Assembly (NCBI GenBank): GCA_947168585.1
Contig: CAMVMK010000014.1
Coordinates: forward strand, 1 to 47,179
DNA: 47,179 bases
Source of the DNA: an uncultured Fretibacterium sp.
GTDB taxonomy: Bacteria; Synergistota; Synergistia; Synergistales; Aminobacteriaceae
Direction: 5' to 3'
The position numbers and the translations under genes were made by a program. The notes under the pieces were generated by a model. That model saw only the letters and a program-made list of their open reading frames with translations, had not been told where the DNA came from and made no database searches. Position 1 is the first letter of the stretch, and every line of letters begins with the position of its first letter. Positions 8,069 through 37,691 of this stretch are shown here, one piece after another.

Positions 8069-8108
8069 TTTTTTCTCCCTTTAATTAAATATTAAATTTT
8101 GCTTTTCG

Positions 8109-8132
8109 TTCCTACTTCCTAACTCCTACTTA
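8109..8132 (-). repeat. degenerate 7-bp repeat, TCCTAAC family
   Basis: Three consecutive units (TCCTACT, TCCTAAC, TCCTACT) between the E1 terminator and dnaE. The same motif flanks the other side of E1 at 8503-8526. Confidence 0.6.
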
Positions 8133-8146
8133 CTTTTAAGTGCTAT

Positions 8147-8178
8147 AATAAAATAAAACCGTCTGGGAGAGGTCAGAC
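8147..8178 (-). terminator. intrinsic terminator of E1 with CCUCU loop
   Basis: Minus strand GTCTG-ACCTCTCC-CAGAC followed by GGTTTTATTTTATT. The loop CCTCTCC is the exact complement of GGAGAGG at the 5' end of the same RNA and overlaps the complement of the ORF's AGAGGT ribosome site. Confidence 0.75.
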
Positions 8179-8255
8179 GTTAAATTTTAAGGCTCAGCTG
8201 AAGTTGGGGGGTGGTATCCCCGCATCAGACATAAGCCTTAAATACGGAAGATAAA

Positions 8256-8366
8256 TTAGCGTTTAATGGCACGGATTAGATCCGTTACCGCTCGTACGAA
8301 GTTTGTGTTGGCTTCTACGAGCTTTATTTTTAGGTAGATTTTCATCAACTCAAATAACTTTTTCAC
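8256..8366 (-). CDS. small amphipathic protein of unit E1 (36 aa)
   Basis: Starts at GTG (8364-8366) 6 nt after AGAGGTGATAGC and encodes 36 residues. It is homologous to the 30-residue product at 11725-11817: both begin VKKL(F/L)EL, share LKIKLV and VRA, and have a helix-length pattern of Leu/Ile/Val alternating with Lys/Arg/Glu, so an amphipathic helix is likely. There is no signal peptide or long hydrophobic segment. An upstream in-frame ATG would give 64 residues, but the extension is not conserved in the second copy while the GTG and its ribosome site are. Function unknown: a small toxin, a leader peptide or a regulator are all possible. Confidence 0.65.
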   Translation of the reverse strand: MKKLFELMKIYLKIKLVEANTNFVRAVTDLIRAIKR

Positions 8367-8474
8367 GCTATCACCTCTTTTCACCTGAAATTTTTTCAAG
8401 CTACTTAGGGGCGATCCCCTGTAAGCCTCATTATGAAATTCAAACTTCAAATTTCAAAAAGCCTCTCCGAAAAA

Positions 8475-8483
8475 ATTTTATCA
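8475..8483 (-). promoter_or_regulatory. extended -10 promoter of E1
   Basis: Minus strand TGATAAAAT, an extended -10 (TGnTAnAAT type), 6 nt before conserved GGAGAGG. The second copy has TGTTAAAAT in the same place. Confidence 0.6.
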
Positions 8484-8502
8484 TGCCTTTATTTCTTTTT
8501 CA

Positions 8503-8526
8503 TTCCTACTTCCTAACTCCTACTTG
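8503..8526 (-). repeat. degenerate 7-bp repeat, TCCTAAC family
   Basis: TCCTACT-TCCTAAC-TCCTACT, almost identical to 8109-8132, between dnaX and the E1 promoter. E1 is therefore flanked on both sides by the same short repeat array. Confidence 0.6.
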
Positions 8527-8531
8527 CTTTT

Positions 8532-10505: not shown

Positions 10506-11633
10506 ATGGAAAAAGCAAAAGTATTTTTCACAGATTTCAGAACTCAAATCGGAGTAAGCCAATGCGCTAAACTTCAAAAATTATGCCGCGCCGCAGGTAT
10601 CGCTAATATTGATTTCAAAGATAAATTTGTTGCGATTAAAATGCACTTCGGCGAACTCGGGAACTGCGCCTATCTTCGTCCCAATTACGTCAAAGCCGTT
10701 GCAGATTTAATTAAAGAATTGGGCGGTGTTCCTTTCCTTACGGACTGCAATACTCTTTATCCCGGAAGCAGAAAAAACGCCGTAGATCATTTAACTTGCG
10801 CTGAAATTAACGGCTTCAACACTGTTACAACAGGATGTCACGTTATTATAGCTGACGGTCTGCGAGGCACTGACGACGTAGAAGTCCCGGTTGTCAACGG
10901 AGAATTTTGCAAGACTGCTTTAATCGGCAGAACTTTAATGGACGCTGATGTAATTATTTCTCTTTCGCACTTCAAAGGCCACGAAATGACGGGCTTCGGA
11001 GGAGCTATAAAAAATATCGGAATGGGCGGAGGCTCAAGAGCGGGAAAAATGCAGCAGCATAACGACGGAAAGCCGGTTGTAGACCCGGAACTCTGTCGCG
11101 GCTGTCATCGCTGTGCTAAAGAGTGCGGAAGCGATGCAATTTCTTACGGAGCAGACAACAAAGCCGTTATCGATAACGAAAAATGCAAAGGCTGCGGACG
11201 CTGTATCGGCGCATGTCCTTTTGACGCTATCTCGCCTATGTACGATACTGCGCTTGAAAGTTTATGCTGCAAAATGGCTGAATATACTCAGGCAATCTGT
11301 CATAATAAACCGTGCTTCCATATTAGTCTTATTATGGACGTTTCACCTAACTGCGACTGTCATGGAGAAAATGACGCTCCTATTTTACCGAATATCGGAA
11401 TGGCAGCTTCTTTCGACCCCGTTGCTCTTGACCAGGCCTGCGCGGATTTATGTCTGAAAGCTACGCCGGTACGCAATAGTCAATTAGGCGATAATTTAGC
11501 AGATCCGAACTGGAAACATCATCATGATCATTTCTTTGACAGCAATCCCAATATCCGCTGGAAAGAAACTTTATCGCACGGAGAAAAAATCGGTCTCGGA
11601 ACTCGTGAATATGAATTAAAGGTGATAAAATAA
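10506..11633 (+). CDS. DUF362 protein with two 4Fe-4S clusters
   Basis: A 375-residue protein. The N-terminal two thirds is a DUF362 domain (KVFFTDFRT, IKMHFGELGN, SHFKGHEMTGFGGAIKNIGMG). A ferredoxin module follows at about 195-245 with CRGCHRCAKECG and CKGCGRCIGACP, giving two 4Fe-4S clusters. The C-terminus again belongs to the DUF362 fold (ALDQACADLC). It has no signal peptide, so it is cytoplasmic. Its role is unknown, although proteins of this architecture are common in anaerobes and are presumed to carry electrons. The ribosome site is GAGGGG. The stop codon sits inside the U-tract of the oppositely directed terminator of E2, which can also act as a hairpin terminator for this gene. 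Confidence 0.9.
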   Translation: MEKAKVFFTDFRTQIGVSQCAKLQKLCRAAGIANIDFKDKFVAIKMHFGELGNCAYLRPNYVKAVADLIKELGGVPFLTDCNTLYPGSRKNAVDHLTCAEINGFNTVTTGCHVIIADGLRGTDDVEVPVVNGEFCKTALIGRTLMDADVIISLSHFKGHEMTGFGGAIKNIGMGGGSRAGKMQQHNDGKPVVDPELCRGCHRCAKECGSDAISYGADNKAVIDNEKCKGCGRCIGACPFDAISPMYDTALESLCCKMAEYTQAICHNKPCFHISLIMDVSPNCDCHGENDAPILPNIGMAASFDPVALDQACADLCLKATPVRNSQLGDNLADPNWKHHHDHFFDSNPNIRWKETLSHGEKIGLGTREYELKVIK

Positions 11634-11659
11634 GTTAAAACGTCCGGAAGAGGTCGGAC
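11630..11659 (-). terminator. intrinsic terminator of E2, shared end with DUF362 gene
   Basis: Minus strand GTCCG-ACCTCTTC-CGGAC then GTTTTAACTTATTTTA. The loop CCTCT can pair with AGAGG at the RNA 5' end and ACCTC with the ribosome site GAGGT. On the plus strand the hairpin lies just after the DUF362 stop. Confidence 0.7.
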
Positions 11660-11724
11660 AAAGTTTATAAACTCGCTGAAGCGGGGGTTGCGATCCCCCA
11701 CCTCGTTGAGAAATGGAAGACTAA

Positions 11725-11817
11725 TTACAATCGGCTCAACTCCGATATGGCTCGTACAAGTTCTATACGGGACTTTACGAGCTTTATTTTGAGCCAAAGC
11801 TCTAATAACTTTTTCAC
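11725..11817 (-). CDS. small amphipathic protein of unit E2 (30 aa)
   Basis: GTG start (11815-11817) after GGGAGGTGATAGC; 30 residues. It aligns with the E1 peptide with a 3-residue gap near the front: VKKLLEL, then LKIKLV, then VRAISEL. The codons for KLV...VRA are also the two arms of the conserved stem GCTCGTA/TACGAGC, so protein and RNA structure constrain the same bases. It is basic and amphipathic, and its function is unknown. It is too short for routine gene callers. Confidence 0.62.
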   Translation of the reverse strand: MKKLLELWLKIKLVKSRIELVRAISELSRL

Positions 11818-11924
11818 GCTATCACCTCCCTTTCACCCGAAATTTTTTCAGGCTACGGGAGTCCCCGTGCAAGCCTAATTCCTAAGTTAAAACTTCTAAC
11901 GTTAGGAAGCCTCTCCGAAAAATT

Positions 11925-11933
11925 ATTTTAACA
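11925..11933 (-). promoter_or_regulatory. extended -10 promoter of E2
   Basis: Minus strand TGTTAAAAT, 8 nt before GGAGAGG, the same arrangement as E1. No clear -35 box is seen, which is normal for extended -10 promoters. Confidence 0.58.
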
Positions 11934-11943
11934 TAATGAATTT

Positions 11944-12771
11944 TTATTTTTTATCTAAATTTTTTGCGCGTGTTTTTTGCCAAAGCGAAATATACTGCTC
12001 GTTTAAGAAAGTCGGATAGTCAACGCCTTCAGCAGGCCGTCCCCAATGATAAGTATCAGAGCGTTCAGATAAATATTTTCTTAATACCTTAGGAATATCA
12101 TCATCATAAACTGTAATAATATTTTTTGAGTTCATTTCGTCTAAATAATCCCGAAGCCCTATAAAATTTGCTTTGCCCCAGCGTTCAAATTTTTCTTTTT
12201 CGGGCTTTTCAATTTTACAGCCTGTAGCCTGCAATAAAATTCCGCATGAGCCGCTGAAATCGCAGACTGTAACATCTCTCAAAACTTGGCCGACTAAAAT
12301 AGCCCCCGACAGGCGCGCCTGAAATTCTGCAAGTCTTCTTTGATAATAAGGATAATTAGGCGTGTCCCATTCTGATAACGCCGTTAAAATTCTTTGAGCA
12401 ACAAAAGGAATTACAGACGGATCAATTATTAATGAATTATCTACAGGAAAAGACGAATATAAAAATTTTACGTTAAATTTTTCGAGACCTTTAATATTTT
12501 TTATTTCATCTTTATCGAGAGCAAGAACTCTTGAATTTGCAGGAAGCTCACGCAGAATTTTTCCGCGTTCAGCCGTAACTAAATCGCCGTTAGAGTTCCA
12601 AATTTTAAGCGGAATTACATTGACTTCCGAGCCGCCTATAAAAGACGTAAGCAGAGACAGCCACATATCCGTTACAACGATTTCGATTTTATTTTGAGAT
12701 AGAGCTGCTACGCCCGAAATAAAAATTATAAAAATAGAAATTAGGAGCAAAGAAAAAATTTTTTTTAACAT
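11944..12771 (-). CDS. exported ZnuA-like solute-binding protein, divergent
   Basis: 275 residues with an N-terminal hydrophobic signal segment (about 5-24). The segment KIEIVVTDMWLSLLTSFIGGSEVNVIPL resembles the start of metal-binding cluster A-I (ZnuA/TroA-type) binding proteins, and the later part (residues 125-170, LTALSEWDTPNYPYYQRRL) fits the helix linking the two lobes. The His residues that bind zinc or manganese in ZnuA are not evident, so metal binding is doubtful. No permease or ATPase gene is adjacent. The start is preceded by a TCCTAAC-type repeat that provides GGAG in front of the ATG. Assignment is tentative. Confidence 0.5.
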   Translation of the reverse strand: MLKKIFSLLLISIFIIFISGVAALSQNKIEIVVTDMWLSLLTSFIGGSEVNVIPLKIWNSNGDLVTAERGKILRELPANSRVLALDKDEIKNIKGLEKFNVKFLYSSFPVDNSLIIDPSVIPFVAQRILTALSEWDTPNYPYYQRRLAEFQARLSGAILVGQVLRDVTVCDFSGSCGILLQATGCKIEKPEKEKFERWGKANFIGLRDYLDEMNSKNIITVYDDDIPKVLRKYLSERSDTYHWGRPAEGVDYPTFLNEQYISLWQKTRAKNLDKK

Positions 12772-12804: not shown

Positions 12805-13536
12805 TTAGTCATCGCCGAACTTTGCTTTAAGGTCATTGAGGACAAGAGTAGCGACTTTATATTCTGCTCCGCGTCTGGTTCTGTCGCTTTCAATATGCTC
12901 AAAGCCGTTCATGTAGAGCCTCACCGTAAATTCCGGAGCGTGTGAAGGCCCTACAACTTTCAATAATTCATAATTCGGCAAGGGCATATGACGAGCCTGA
13001 AGCCATAACTGCAACGCCGTTTTAGGGTCGTGTGTAGCTTCCTGCTCTTCGAGGTCTTGAAGAAATAATTTTTTAATTACTCTATCAGCTGACGAAACTC
13101 CCCCGTCAAGAACTACTGCACCTAAAACACTCTCGACCGCATCAGCGCACATTGAATGAGGCAGAGGGTCTTTAATCGAACGGCCATGCAGTAATAAATA
13201 CGGAATATTTAATAATTCAGCACGTTTATAAAGCGATTCGCTCTTGACGAGTTCGGCGCGCATTTGAGTTAATTCGCCCTCGTTAGCTTCCGGATACATT
13301 CTATATAAGGCTCTGGCGGTTACGAAACTTAAAATTGAATCTCCTAAAAATTCAAGTCGTTCGTTATTGTGAAATAATCCGTTTTCACGAGAAAATGACG
13401 AATGAGTTAATGCCTCTTCGAGCAAATATCTGTCCTCAAATGTATAGCCTAAATTGTCTTCAAGGACTTTCAAGGCTTTTTCATCGAAGACAGCTTTTTT
13501 GCGTCTCGGGCCGAATTCTTCTTCAAACTTAGGCAT
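12805..13536 (-). CDS. rnc: ribonuclease III
   Basis: 243 residues. The N-terminal catalytic domain has the signature NERLEFLGDSIL (about residues 57-68) and a second acidic site CADAVESVLGAVVLDGG; a C-terminal double-stranded RNA-binding domain starts at about residue 168 (DPKTALQLWLQARH). It cuts structured RNA such as rRNA precursors. The start overlaps the fabF stop by 8 bp, so it is the last gene of the fatty-acid operon, an arrangement widely seen in bacteria. Confidence 0.96.
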   Translation of the reverse strand: MPKFEEEFGPRRKKAVFDEKALKVLEDNLGYTFEDRYLLEEALTHSSFSRENGLFHNNERLEFLGDSILSFVTARALYRMYPEANEGELTQMRAELVKSESLYKRAELLNIPYLLLHGRSIKDPLPHSMCADAVESVLGAVVLDGGVSSADRVIKKLFLQDLEEQEATHDPKTALQLWLQARHMPLPNYELLKVVGPSHAPEFTVRLYMNGFEHIESDRTRRGAEYKVATLVLNDLKAKFGDD

Positions 13537-14842: not shown

Positions 14843-14873
14843 ACTTCCTACTTCCTACTTCCTAATTCCTAAT
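14843..14873 (-). repeat. degenerate 7-bp repeat, TCCTAAC family
   Basis: Units TTCCTACTTCCTACTTCCTA and TTCCTAA between acpP and fabF, beginning 6 bp after the acpP stop codon. Confidence 0.6.
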
Positions 14874-14878
14874 TATTT

Positions 14879-37495: not shown

Positions 37496-37508
37496 TATTA
37501 AAATTTTC

Positions 37509-37598
37509 ATGGGAGCTTGTTAAACAGGCTGAGAGGGGATTAAATAATTAAATTCCGACCATAATAACCTGATCCGGATAATGCCGGCGTAGGAAGCA
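37509..37598 (+). ncRNA. TPP riboswitch (THI element)
   Basis: Conserved aptamer parts in order: GGGAGCTTG, AGGCTGAGAGG (37528-37538 region), CCGACC, ACCTGATCCGGATAATGCCGGCGTAGGAAGC. It binds thiamine pyrophosphate and lowers expression of the downstream thi genes. About 95 nt separate it from thiM; no strong terminator hairpin is seen there, so control is more likely by hiding the ribosome site GGAGGG (inference). Confidence 0.95.
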
Positions 37599-37691
37599 TA
37601 AAAGCAAGTAGGAAGTTAAAAAAGGTTTTCACTTTCAAGCAAAAGTTTTTCACTCGCATGAAAAAATAAAATTTTCTGGAGGGAAAATATT

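Follow-up and report, generated by a model that had tools for sequence, protein, structure and literature searches.

A Multi-Copy Family of Small Folded Genes in Synergistaceae Encoding Short Amphipathic Peptides, Possibly Type I Toxin-Like

Gene Organization of the Units E2 and E1

The window analyzed in this study is a stretch of 47,179 nt (contig CAMVMK010000014.1). Unit E2 lies in it on the minus strand between a DUF362 gene (10506–11633, plus strand) and a minus-strand gene at 11944–12771, beyond which follows a gene that was recognized by eye as RNase III-like (12805–13536). E2 is convergent to the DUF362 gene, as had been described in an earlier note on this DNA, and touches its stop codon. 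This DUF362 neighbor is present in only one other genome of 41.

E2 has an extended -10 promoter element (TGTTAAAAT, 11925–11933), which was read directly. The sequence GGAGAGG (11910–11916), located at or near the RNA start, forms the 5′ strand of a long-range pairing. It is followed by the 5′ leader hairpin P2 (TTCCTAA...TTAGGAA, 11876–11909), which is part of the predicted E2 fold, and the leader hairpin P3 (AGGCTTGCACGGGGACTCCCGTAGCCT, 11849–11875), whose CTCCC can pair with an upstream GGGG or, as an anti-SD, with the strong Shine-Dalgarno sequence (SD; GGGAGGTGA, 11822–11830, also read directly). The small ORF (11725–11817) has a GTG start and encodes an amphipathic peptide of 30 amino acids (MKKLLELWLKIKLVKSRIELVRAISELSRL; peptide model E 2.6e-12). 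It contains the two arms of an internal helix, P5, namely GCTCGTA (11777–11783) and TACGAGC (11750–11756). The hairpin P7 (CAACGAGGTGGGGGATCGCAACCCCCGCTTCAGCG, 11674–11708) is located in the 3′-UTR, and the terminal hairpin P8 (GTCCGACCTCTTCCGGAC, 11642–11659) carries in its loop the strand CCTCTTC (11647–11653), the partner of GGAGAGG. A T-rich tail (GTTTTAACTTATTT, 11628–11641) follows P8. Hairpin and T-run (11660–11641) were scored as terminator-like, in agreement with the terminator plan proposed earlier. All of these features are on the minus strand, and R1, a covariance model restricted to the sequence downstream of the stop codon and thus without the ORF, matches E2 at 11641–11726 on this strand (E 3.0e-9).

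The sister unit E1 is located between dnaX and dnaE (8157–8478, minus strand). Its ORF (8256–8366, minus strand) encodes 36 amino acids (MKKLFELMKIYLKIKLVEANTNFVRAVTDLIRAIKR; peptide model E 3.6e-16) and its 7-mers are found at 8462–8468 and 8166–8172. The two units can be aligned end to end, and the shared blocks named in the earlier note (GGAGAGGCTT, TGAAAAAATTTC, GGTGAAA, GAGGTGATAGCGTGAAAAAG and the 3′ hairpin) occur in both of them in identical order on the minus strand. E2 is indeed the shorter unit, but by 33 nt and not by the 40 nt stated there: E2 spans 277 nt and E1 310 nt, counted from the 5′ 7-mer to the 3′ hairpin. The proposal that their divergence speaks against a recent duplication was borne out. 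Both units fold far better than their dinucleotide shuffles, E2 with -101.5 kcal/mol compared to -77.4 kcal/mol (z -4.8) and E1 with a z of -5.5. The similarity of E2 to other places is also beyond chance, since a blastn search against its own genome returned six of them with E<1e-5, five of these with E<1e-15.

Copy Number and Distribution

E2 is one of about 17 copies of a small folded gene in this Synergistaceae genome, which belongs to a rumen and termite-gut clade; the copies are dispersed as well as arranged in tandem. Blastn located further copies on several contigs of the genome, which, together with the model searches below, confirms the multi-copy family that had been suspected from the two copies in the window. 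A peptide model built from 11 copies gave 14 matches, comprising E1, E2, a tandem pair on contig C46, three copies on C95, two on C54, two 5′-truncated copies on C47, and one each on C5, C1, and C4. R1 matched 17 places at E<=1, of which 13 at E<=0.001, and added three units missed by the peptide model, on C6, C35, and C3, which encode a second class of peptide. In addition, a 5′ fragment (C35:12378) and a mini form without ORF on C27 were found.

With the peptide model A3, relatives were detected in 35 of the 43 genomes of the genus. In the whole phylum, 52 of 188 genomes gave a match, namely these 35, 16 from other genera of the family and a weak one outside of it. Apart from the genus itself, relatives occur in at least 12 genera of the family and almost nowhere else. 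R1 matched 51 of the 188 genomes, nearly all of the same family, plus the genome G151 and one weak match. The agreement of the two models, which describe different parts of the unit, on largely the same genomes argues strongly that the RNA and the peptide form one entity. Carrier records with a name are MAGs of Synergistaceae or Synergistales, which come from rumen and, judging from isolate names, termite gut. In G151 (L271, C169:497–580), which is of another family (f4) and has a contamination of 7%, a strong match to the 3′ domain (E 7.8e-18) accompanies a decayed ORF; contamination or transfer may account for this domain.

The single-contig genome G090 (2,728,333 bases) carries two copies (L208 and L209, C1:1872400–1874800 and 1181400–1183600). 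By eye, they adjoin ORF pairs similar to type II toxin-antitoxin systems (MazEF-like and BrnTA-like), and one of them is near an integrase-like ORF. Tandem arrays of three to seven units were observed in several genomes (L103/L055 in G019:C99, L107 in G051:C4, L204 in G085:C86, and others), in which some ORFs are frameshifted while leader and 3′ domain survive. Arrays are often located at contig ends, so that copy numbers are underestimated.

Phage and plasmid DNA gave no match to the units, and a pattern search of viral contigs yielded no true match. Matches to the hairpin pattern outside the Synergistales (Clostridia, Leuconostoc, Lachnospiraceae, and others) were rejected as chance stem-loops in which the ORF is absent.

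RNA Architecture and Covariation

As judged from the sequence, each full copy is a transcription unit of its own, with an extended -10 element, a folded leader with a strong SD, an ORF of 27 to 38 codons and a 3′ hairpin with a T-run. The collection comprises 116 different units, 107 of them with a clear SD. The hallmark of the family is the 7-mer at the 5′ end, whose complement lies in the loop of the terminal hairpin on the 3′ side. This pairing is kept in 82 of the 101 full units by more than 25 distinct sequence pairs, and in 68 of these 82 the motif TGnTANNNT is located directly upstream of the 5′ 7-mer. In controls, pairing was found in 11% of cases when leaders were shuffled and in 28% when units of different code exchanged their 3′ ends; this second value is raised because the codes resemble each other. 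Versions of the pairing include GGAGAGG/CCTCTCC, GGCGAGG/CCTCGCC, GGGAAGC/GCTTCCC, GGATGAC/GTCATCC, and GGAAGGT/ACCTTCC, as well as GGAGAAC/GTTCTCC, GGCAAGGT/ACCTTGCC, GGACAGG/CCTGTCC, and GGGTAGG/CCTATCC.

In A4, an alignment of 28 units, 89.4% of the cells of the whole structure are paired, compared to 37–45% with the partners slid. There are 131 double changes, compared to 40.5 in shuffles, and 29 of 39 pairs are changed on both sides. The long-range pairing is intact in 99% of its cells. Helices 2 and 3, which correspond to P2, are paired in 76–78% and helix 4 (P5) in 92%; helices 5 to 7 (P7) show many double changes, and in helix 8 (P8) all five of five pairs are changed on both sides.

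The C-rich strand of the last leader hairpin has alternative partners, either the upstream Gs or the SD. Compact leaders take the form CCCCC-GAAA-GGGGG or CCUCC-GAAA-GGAGG, in which the anti-SD stem itself varies with compensation. Over all units, the SD-stem score is 69%, compared to 39% in shuffles.

The fold extends into the coding region. Over 94 sequences, P5 is paired in 76% of the cells compared to 30–44% when slid. A further helix, P6, fails in one fixed register (35% paired), which was therefore rejected. The sequences suggest two alternative registers for it, GCGGA/TCCGC or GCCG/CGGC, and the third positions of alanine and arginine codons are coupled there. The synonymous coupling amounts to 65 compared to 39 expected in P6 and to 55 compared to 39 in P5 (p<0.0005). 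Altogether, coupled synonymous codons were found at three pairs of the ORF helices (p<0.0005, shuffles that preserve the amino acids).

Rfam gave no covariance-model match for the element at or near the gathering score and none in E-value mode. Elsewhere in the window, a TPP riboswitch (RF00059, 72.3 bits) was identified at 37499–37612 on the plus strand, upstream of a plus-strand gene cluster.

Encoded Peptides

The common, A-type peptide forms by its pattern an amphipathic helix of three heptads with a consensus of roughly IIKLVKALTELIRALAELIRIFK. Its mean moment is 0.71, compared to 0.39 for shuffled sequences, and its mean charge is +3.2. It is under purifying selection, with a dN/dS of 0.20–0.35 over 94 distinct ORF segments; this estimate is conservative, because synonymous sites are bound by RNA helices. 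Together with the covarying synonymous sites and the excess of double changes described above, this supports the view of the earlier note that the conserved blocks are under selection.

The B-type peptide is found in the same RNA cassette and came to light through matches of the 3′ RNA model to units with a different ORF. It has about 35 amino acids, is more hydrophobic and usually ends with histidine (e.g., MKDLLDRIIELLQYISISATVLELILRVIRWLFTH). Its sites are G000:C6:75339–75422, C35:6197–6285, and C3:97440–97516, as well as L276, L278, L279, L282, and L283.

Neither Pfam nor NCBIfam gave a family match for 26 A-type or 7 B-type peptides, and PADLOC gave none for the A-type peptides. One of the 26 A-type peptides weakly matches the phenol-soluble modulin models PSM_alpha of NCBIfam (E 0.0012) and PSMalpha of Pfam (E 0.008), below the family cut-off. 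These matches are not significant after 26 tests and reflect composition.

Isoleucine at the IIK positions, ahead of the KL motif, is encoded by ATA in 123 of 132 cases, whereas its codons are mixed elsewhere in the ORF. This bias indicates a constraint at the level of the nucleic acid, which may be an antisense -10 element, an unpaired A-rich stretch or something else.

Inheritance and Movement of the Units

Several sites are shared between genomes. The flanks of units next to a flagellin gene are common to about a dozen genomes, one of which is from another genus (G110, L218). Those of units located between the genes for a ROK kinase and a Cdc48-like AAA ATPase are common to about fourteen genomes. 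For L057 and L082 (G020 and G007), both flanks are common with 92–95% identity. In contrast, E1 is specific to its lineage. The gap between dnaX and dnaE is 463 nt in this genome. Of 27 relatives measured, 23 have a gap of -11 to +33 nt, and in the closest relative it is 4 nt. The orthologous sites and the lineage-specific E1 together show that some loci of the family are passed on vertically, whereas others arose by duplication or movement, and that units multiplied in tandem in many genomes.

The flanks of E1 thus point to an empty site in the relatives, in which dnaX and dnaE almost abut, but not to a target-site duplication, which was rejected since the genome contains 133 occurrences of the 22-nt flank repeat when up to 3 mismatches are allowed. 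It belongs to a dispersed intergenic repeat of heptamer type, (TCCTAMT)n, with the consensus TCCTACTTCCTAACTCCTACTT, which is found at these 133 places on both strands and nowhere in a reversed-pattern control. In the window, it is located at 8098–8137 and 8492–8531, on both sides of E1, and at 14846–14874.

Some further features of individual sites were observed. Units beside the flagellin gene are divergent from it (L063, L184, L107, L185, and others), and a link in expression is possible. Units at the ROK/Cdc48-like site (L230, L233, L097, L053, and others) have a distinct leader with, by eye, an extra GCGGGG/CCCCGC pseudoknot before the SD. A CRISPR repeat suspected near L206 was discarded, as there are no direct repeats.

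Proposed Function and Alternative Explanations

What can be read from the sequence is a predicted transcription unit, RNA pairing, a conserved peptide and alternative pairings of the SD. We consider it an even call that E2 is a type I toxin-like module comparable to AapA, Hok or TisB, in which the RNA fold would restrain the translation of a membrane-active peptide acting on the cell that makes it. E2 would then be a self-contained small gene, with promoter, structured mRNA and terminator, for a short amphipathic helical peptide, and the fold would be its main safety catch. Pairing of the 5′ 7-mer with the terminal loop at the 3′ end may close the transcript into a compact form, and the C-rich leader segment could pair with the SD, so that the finished full-length RNA would be poorly translated. 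If the 3′ hairpin is lost or opened, by 3′ trimming, cleavage or stress, the leader would refold, the SD would become free and the peptide would be released to act on the membrane of its producer, where it is presumed to be toxic. The multi-copy arrays with decayed ORFs resemble type I loci and were counted in favor of this reading, as were the covarying fold with its long-range pairing, the coupled synonymous codons, the selected amphipathic peptide, the near-perfect SD with an anti-SD in the leader and the B-type peptide in the same cassette. On the other hand, the units show no conserved antisense promoter, their long-range pairing leaves the SD uncovered, unlike that of AapA, an amphipathic helix with charges spread along it also fits surface-active or signaling peptides, and the conserved sites beside flagellin and between the ROK kinase and Cdc48-like genes could indicate a housekeeping role.

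The peptide may instead be exported to act on other cells or surfaces, as a surfactant-like, antimicrobial or signaling peptide whose mRNA is controlled post-transcriptionally. Length, charge, and amphipathicity resemble phenol-soluble-modulin-like peptides, to which the weak match mentioned above also points, and copies and sequences diversify within arrays. This explanation seems unlikely to us, as that match is not significant, no recurrent exporter or modification genes were seen beside the copies, and the neighbors that were seen (flagellin, Cdc48-like, dnaE) are unrelated.

Doubtful, too, is that the unit is a full type I toxin-antitoxin locus whose antisense RNA is encoded in cis and starts inside the ORF, and the presence of such an RNA is held to be less likely than the toxin-like reading. 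The ATA codons at the IIK positions read TATTAT on the opposite strand, placed such that a transcript would run over the SD. However, a TATTAT-like hexamer (5/6 match) opposite these codons is found in only 31% of the units and has neither a -35 element nor a TG extension. No conserved antisense promoter was detected, the opposite strand shows no enrichment of the family's own -10 matrix, and the codons are accounted for just as well by an unpaired A-rich stretch that follows the start codon. The ATA bias could still conceal an antisense promoter in about a third of the units. We do not assign the family to any named type I family, since it matches no family model and an antisense RNA is only a possibility.

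A dual-function regulatory RNA similar to RNAIII, whose C-rich 3′ loop regulates target mRNAs while the ORF is secondary, is quite improbable. The commonest loop, CCUCUCC, is anti-SD-like, and the elaborate fold spans the ORF. But the loop varies freely (GUCAUCC, GCUUCCC, ACCUUGCC, and others) provided that the unit's own 5′ end covaries, which argues for an intramolecular pairing; moreover, the peptide is under purifying selection, and the cassette can hold a different peptide while the RNA is kept. Finally, a non-autonomous mobile or selfish element (MITE-like) bearing promoter, ORF and terminator by chance would suit the dispersed and tandem copies, the complementary ends and the lineage-specific insertion of E1, but is very unlikely given the orthology of several sites across at least a dozen species, in one case reaching another genus, the lack of a target duplication at E1, where the flank repeat is one of 133 genome copies, the lack of an identified transposase and of phage or plasmid carriers, and an end complementarity that sits inside an RNA hairpin loop.

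The type I toxin-like reading can be extended to a pseudoknot-locked mRNA cassette that would represent an undescribed RNA class, with at least two unrelated-looking but interchangeable membrane peptides, a copy-specific 5′-3′ code and a fold that alone replaces the antisense antitoxin. We regard this extension as tentative and lean against it. The family itself appears to be undescribed and almost confined to Synergistaceae; no description of such elements in Synergistetes was found in the open-licence literature. It adds an abundant family of RNA and peptide to this phylum, with unusually strong comparative proof of its structure. Should the peptide prove toxic, Synergistota would have a type I-like toxin family, whose naturally occurring variants could serve to test how end-to-end folding of an mRNA controls translation.

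Comparison to Known Systems

RNAIII of Staphylococcus is a structured RNA that has C-rich hairpin loops and encodes an amphipathic peptide in a short ORF. The E2 family differs from it in being multi-copy and in having loops that covary with the own 5′ end, which argues for internal pairing and not for mRNA targeting. Hok has an inert folded mRNA with 5′-3′ pairing, as is proposed for E2, and Ldr is found in tandem chromosomal copies like the E2 family. However, the peptides and folds of Hok/Sok and Ldr/Rdl are different, and these systems have an antisense RNA.

No TisB family match was obtained in Pfam, which presumably includes a TisB model, or in NCBIfam for the 26 A-type and 7 B-type peptides, and to our knowledge TisB has no 5′-3′ loop pairing of the E2 kind. 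TisB/IstR-1 of Escherichia coli also differs in its control by LexA and its separate antisense RNA. TisB is an amphipathic toxin of 29 amino acids (PMC11449926). As in E2, charges of both signs are located on one face of the helix, and a structured mRNA restrains translation, as is proposed for E2 (PMC11449926). By analogy, the peptides of the E2 family seem to resemble most closely such amphipathic membrane toxins in size and layout (PMC11449926; PMC8309996).

Pairing between the 5′ and 3′ parts of the mRNA and hairpins that sequester the SD are known from type I systems (PMC6733600). In AapA/IsoA, leader hairpins hide the SD during transcription, and 5′-3′ pairing closes the finished mRNA until its 3′ end is trimmed (PMC6733600). 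The E2 family is from a different phylum, has no detected antisense promoter, and its peptides gave no match in Pfam or NCBIfam, which may lack an AapA model. A long-distance 5′-3′ interaction is found in both, but in AapA it covers the SD, whereas in the E2 family the 3′ partner pairs with the extreme 5′ end, which joins the hairpin loop as a pseudoknot, and the SD is handled locally. Common to both are a membrane peptide of about 30 amino acids, which is predicted for E2, several chromosomal copies, an mRNA closed by long-distance 5′-3′ pairing and leader hairpins that sequester the SD, for E2 as a predicted alternative pairing (PMC6733600; PMC8309996). Based on this analogy, AapA/IsoA of Helicobacter and its relatives would be the closest worked example for the mechanism proposed for E2.
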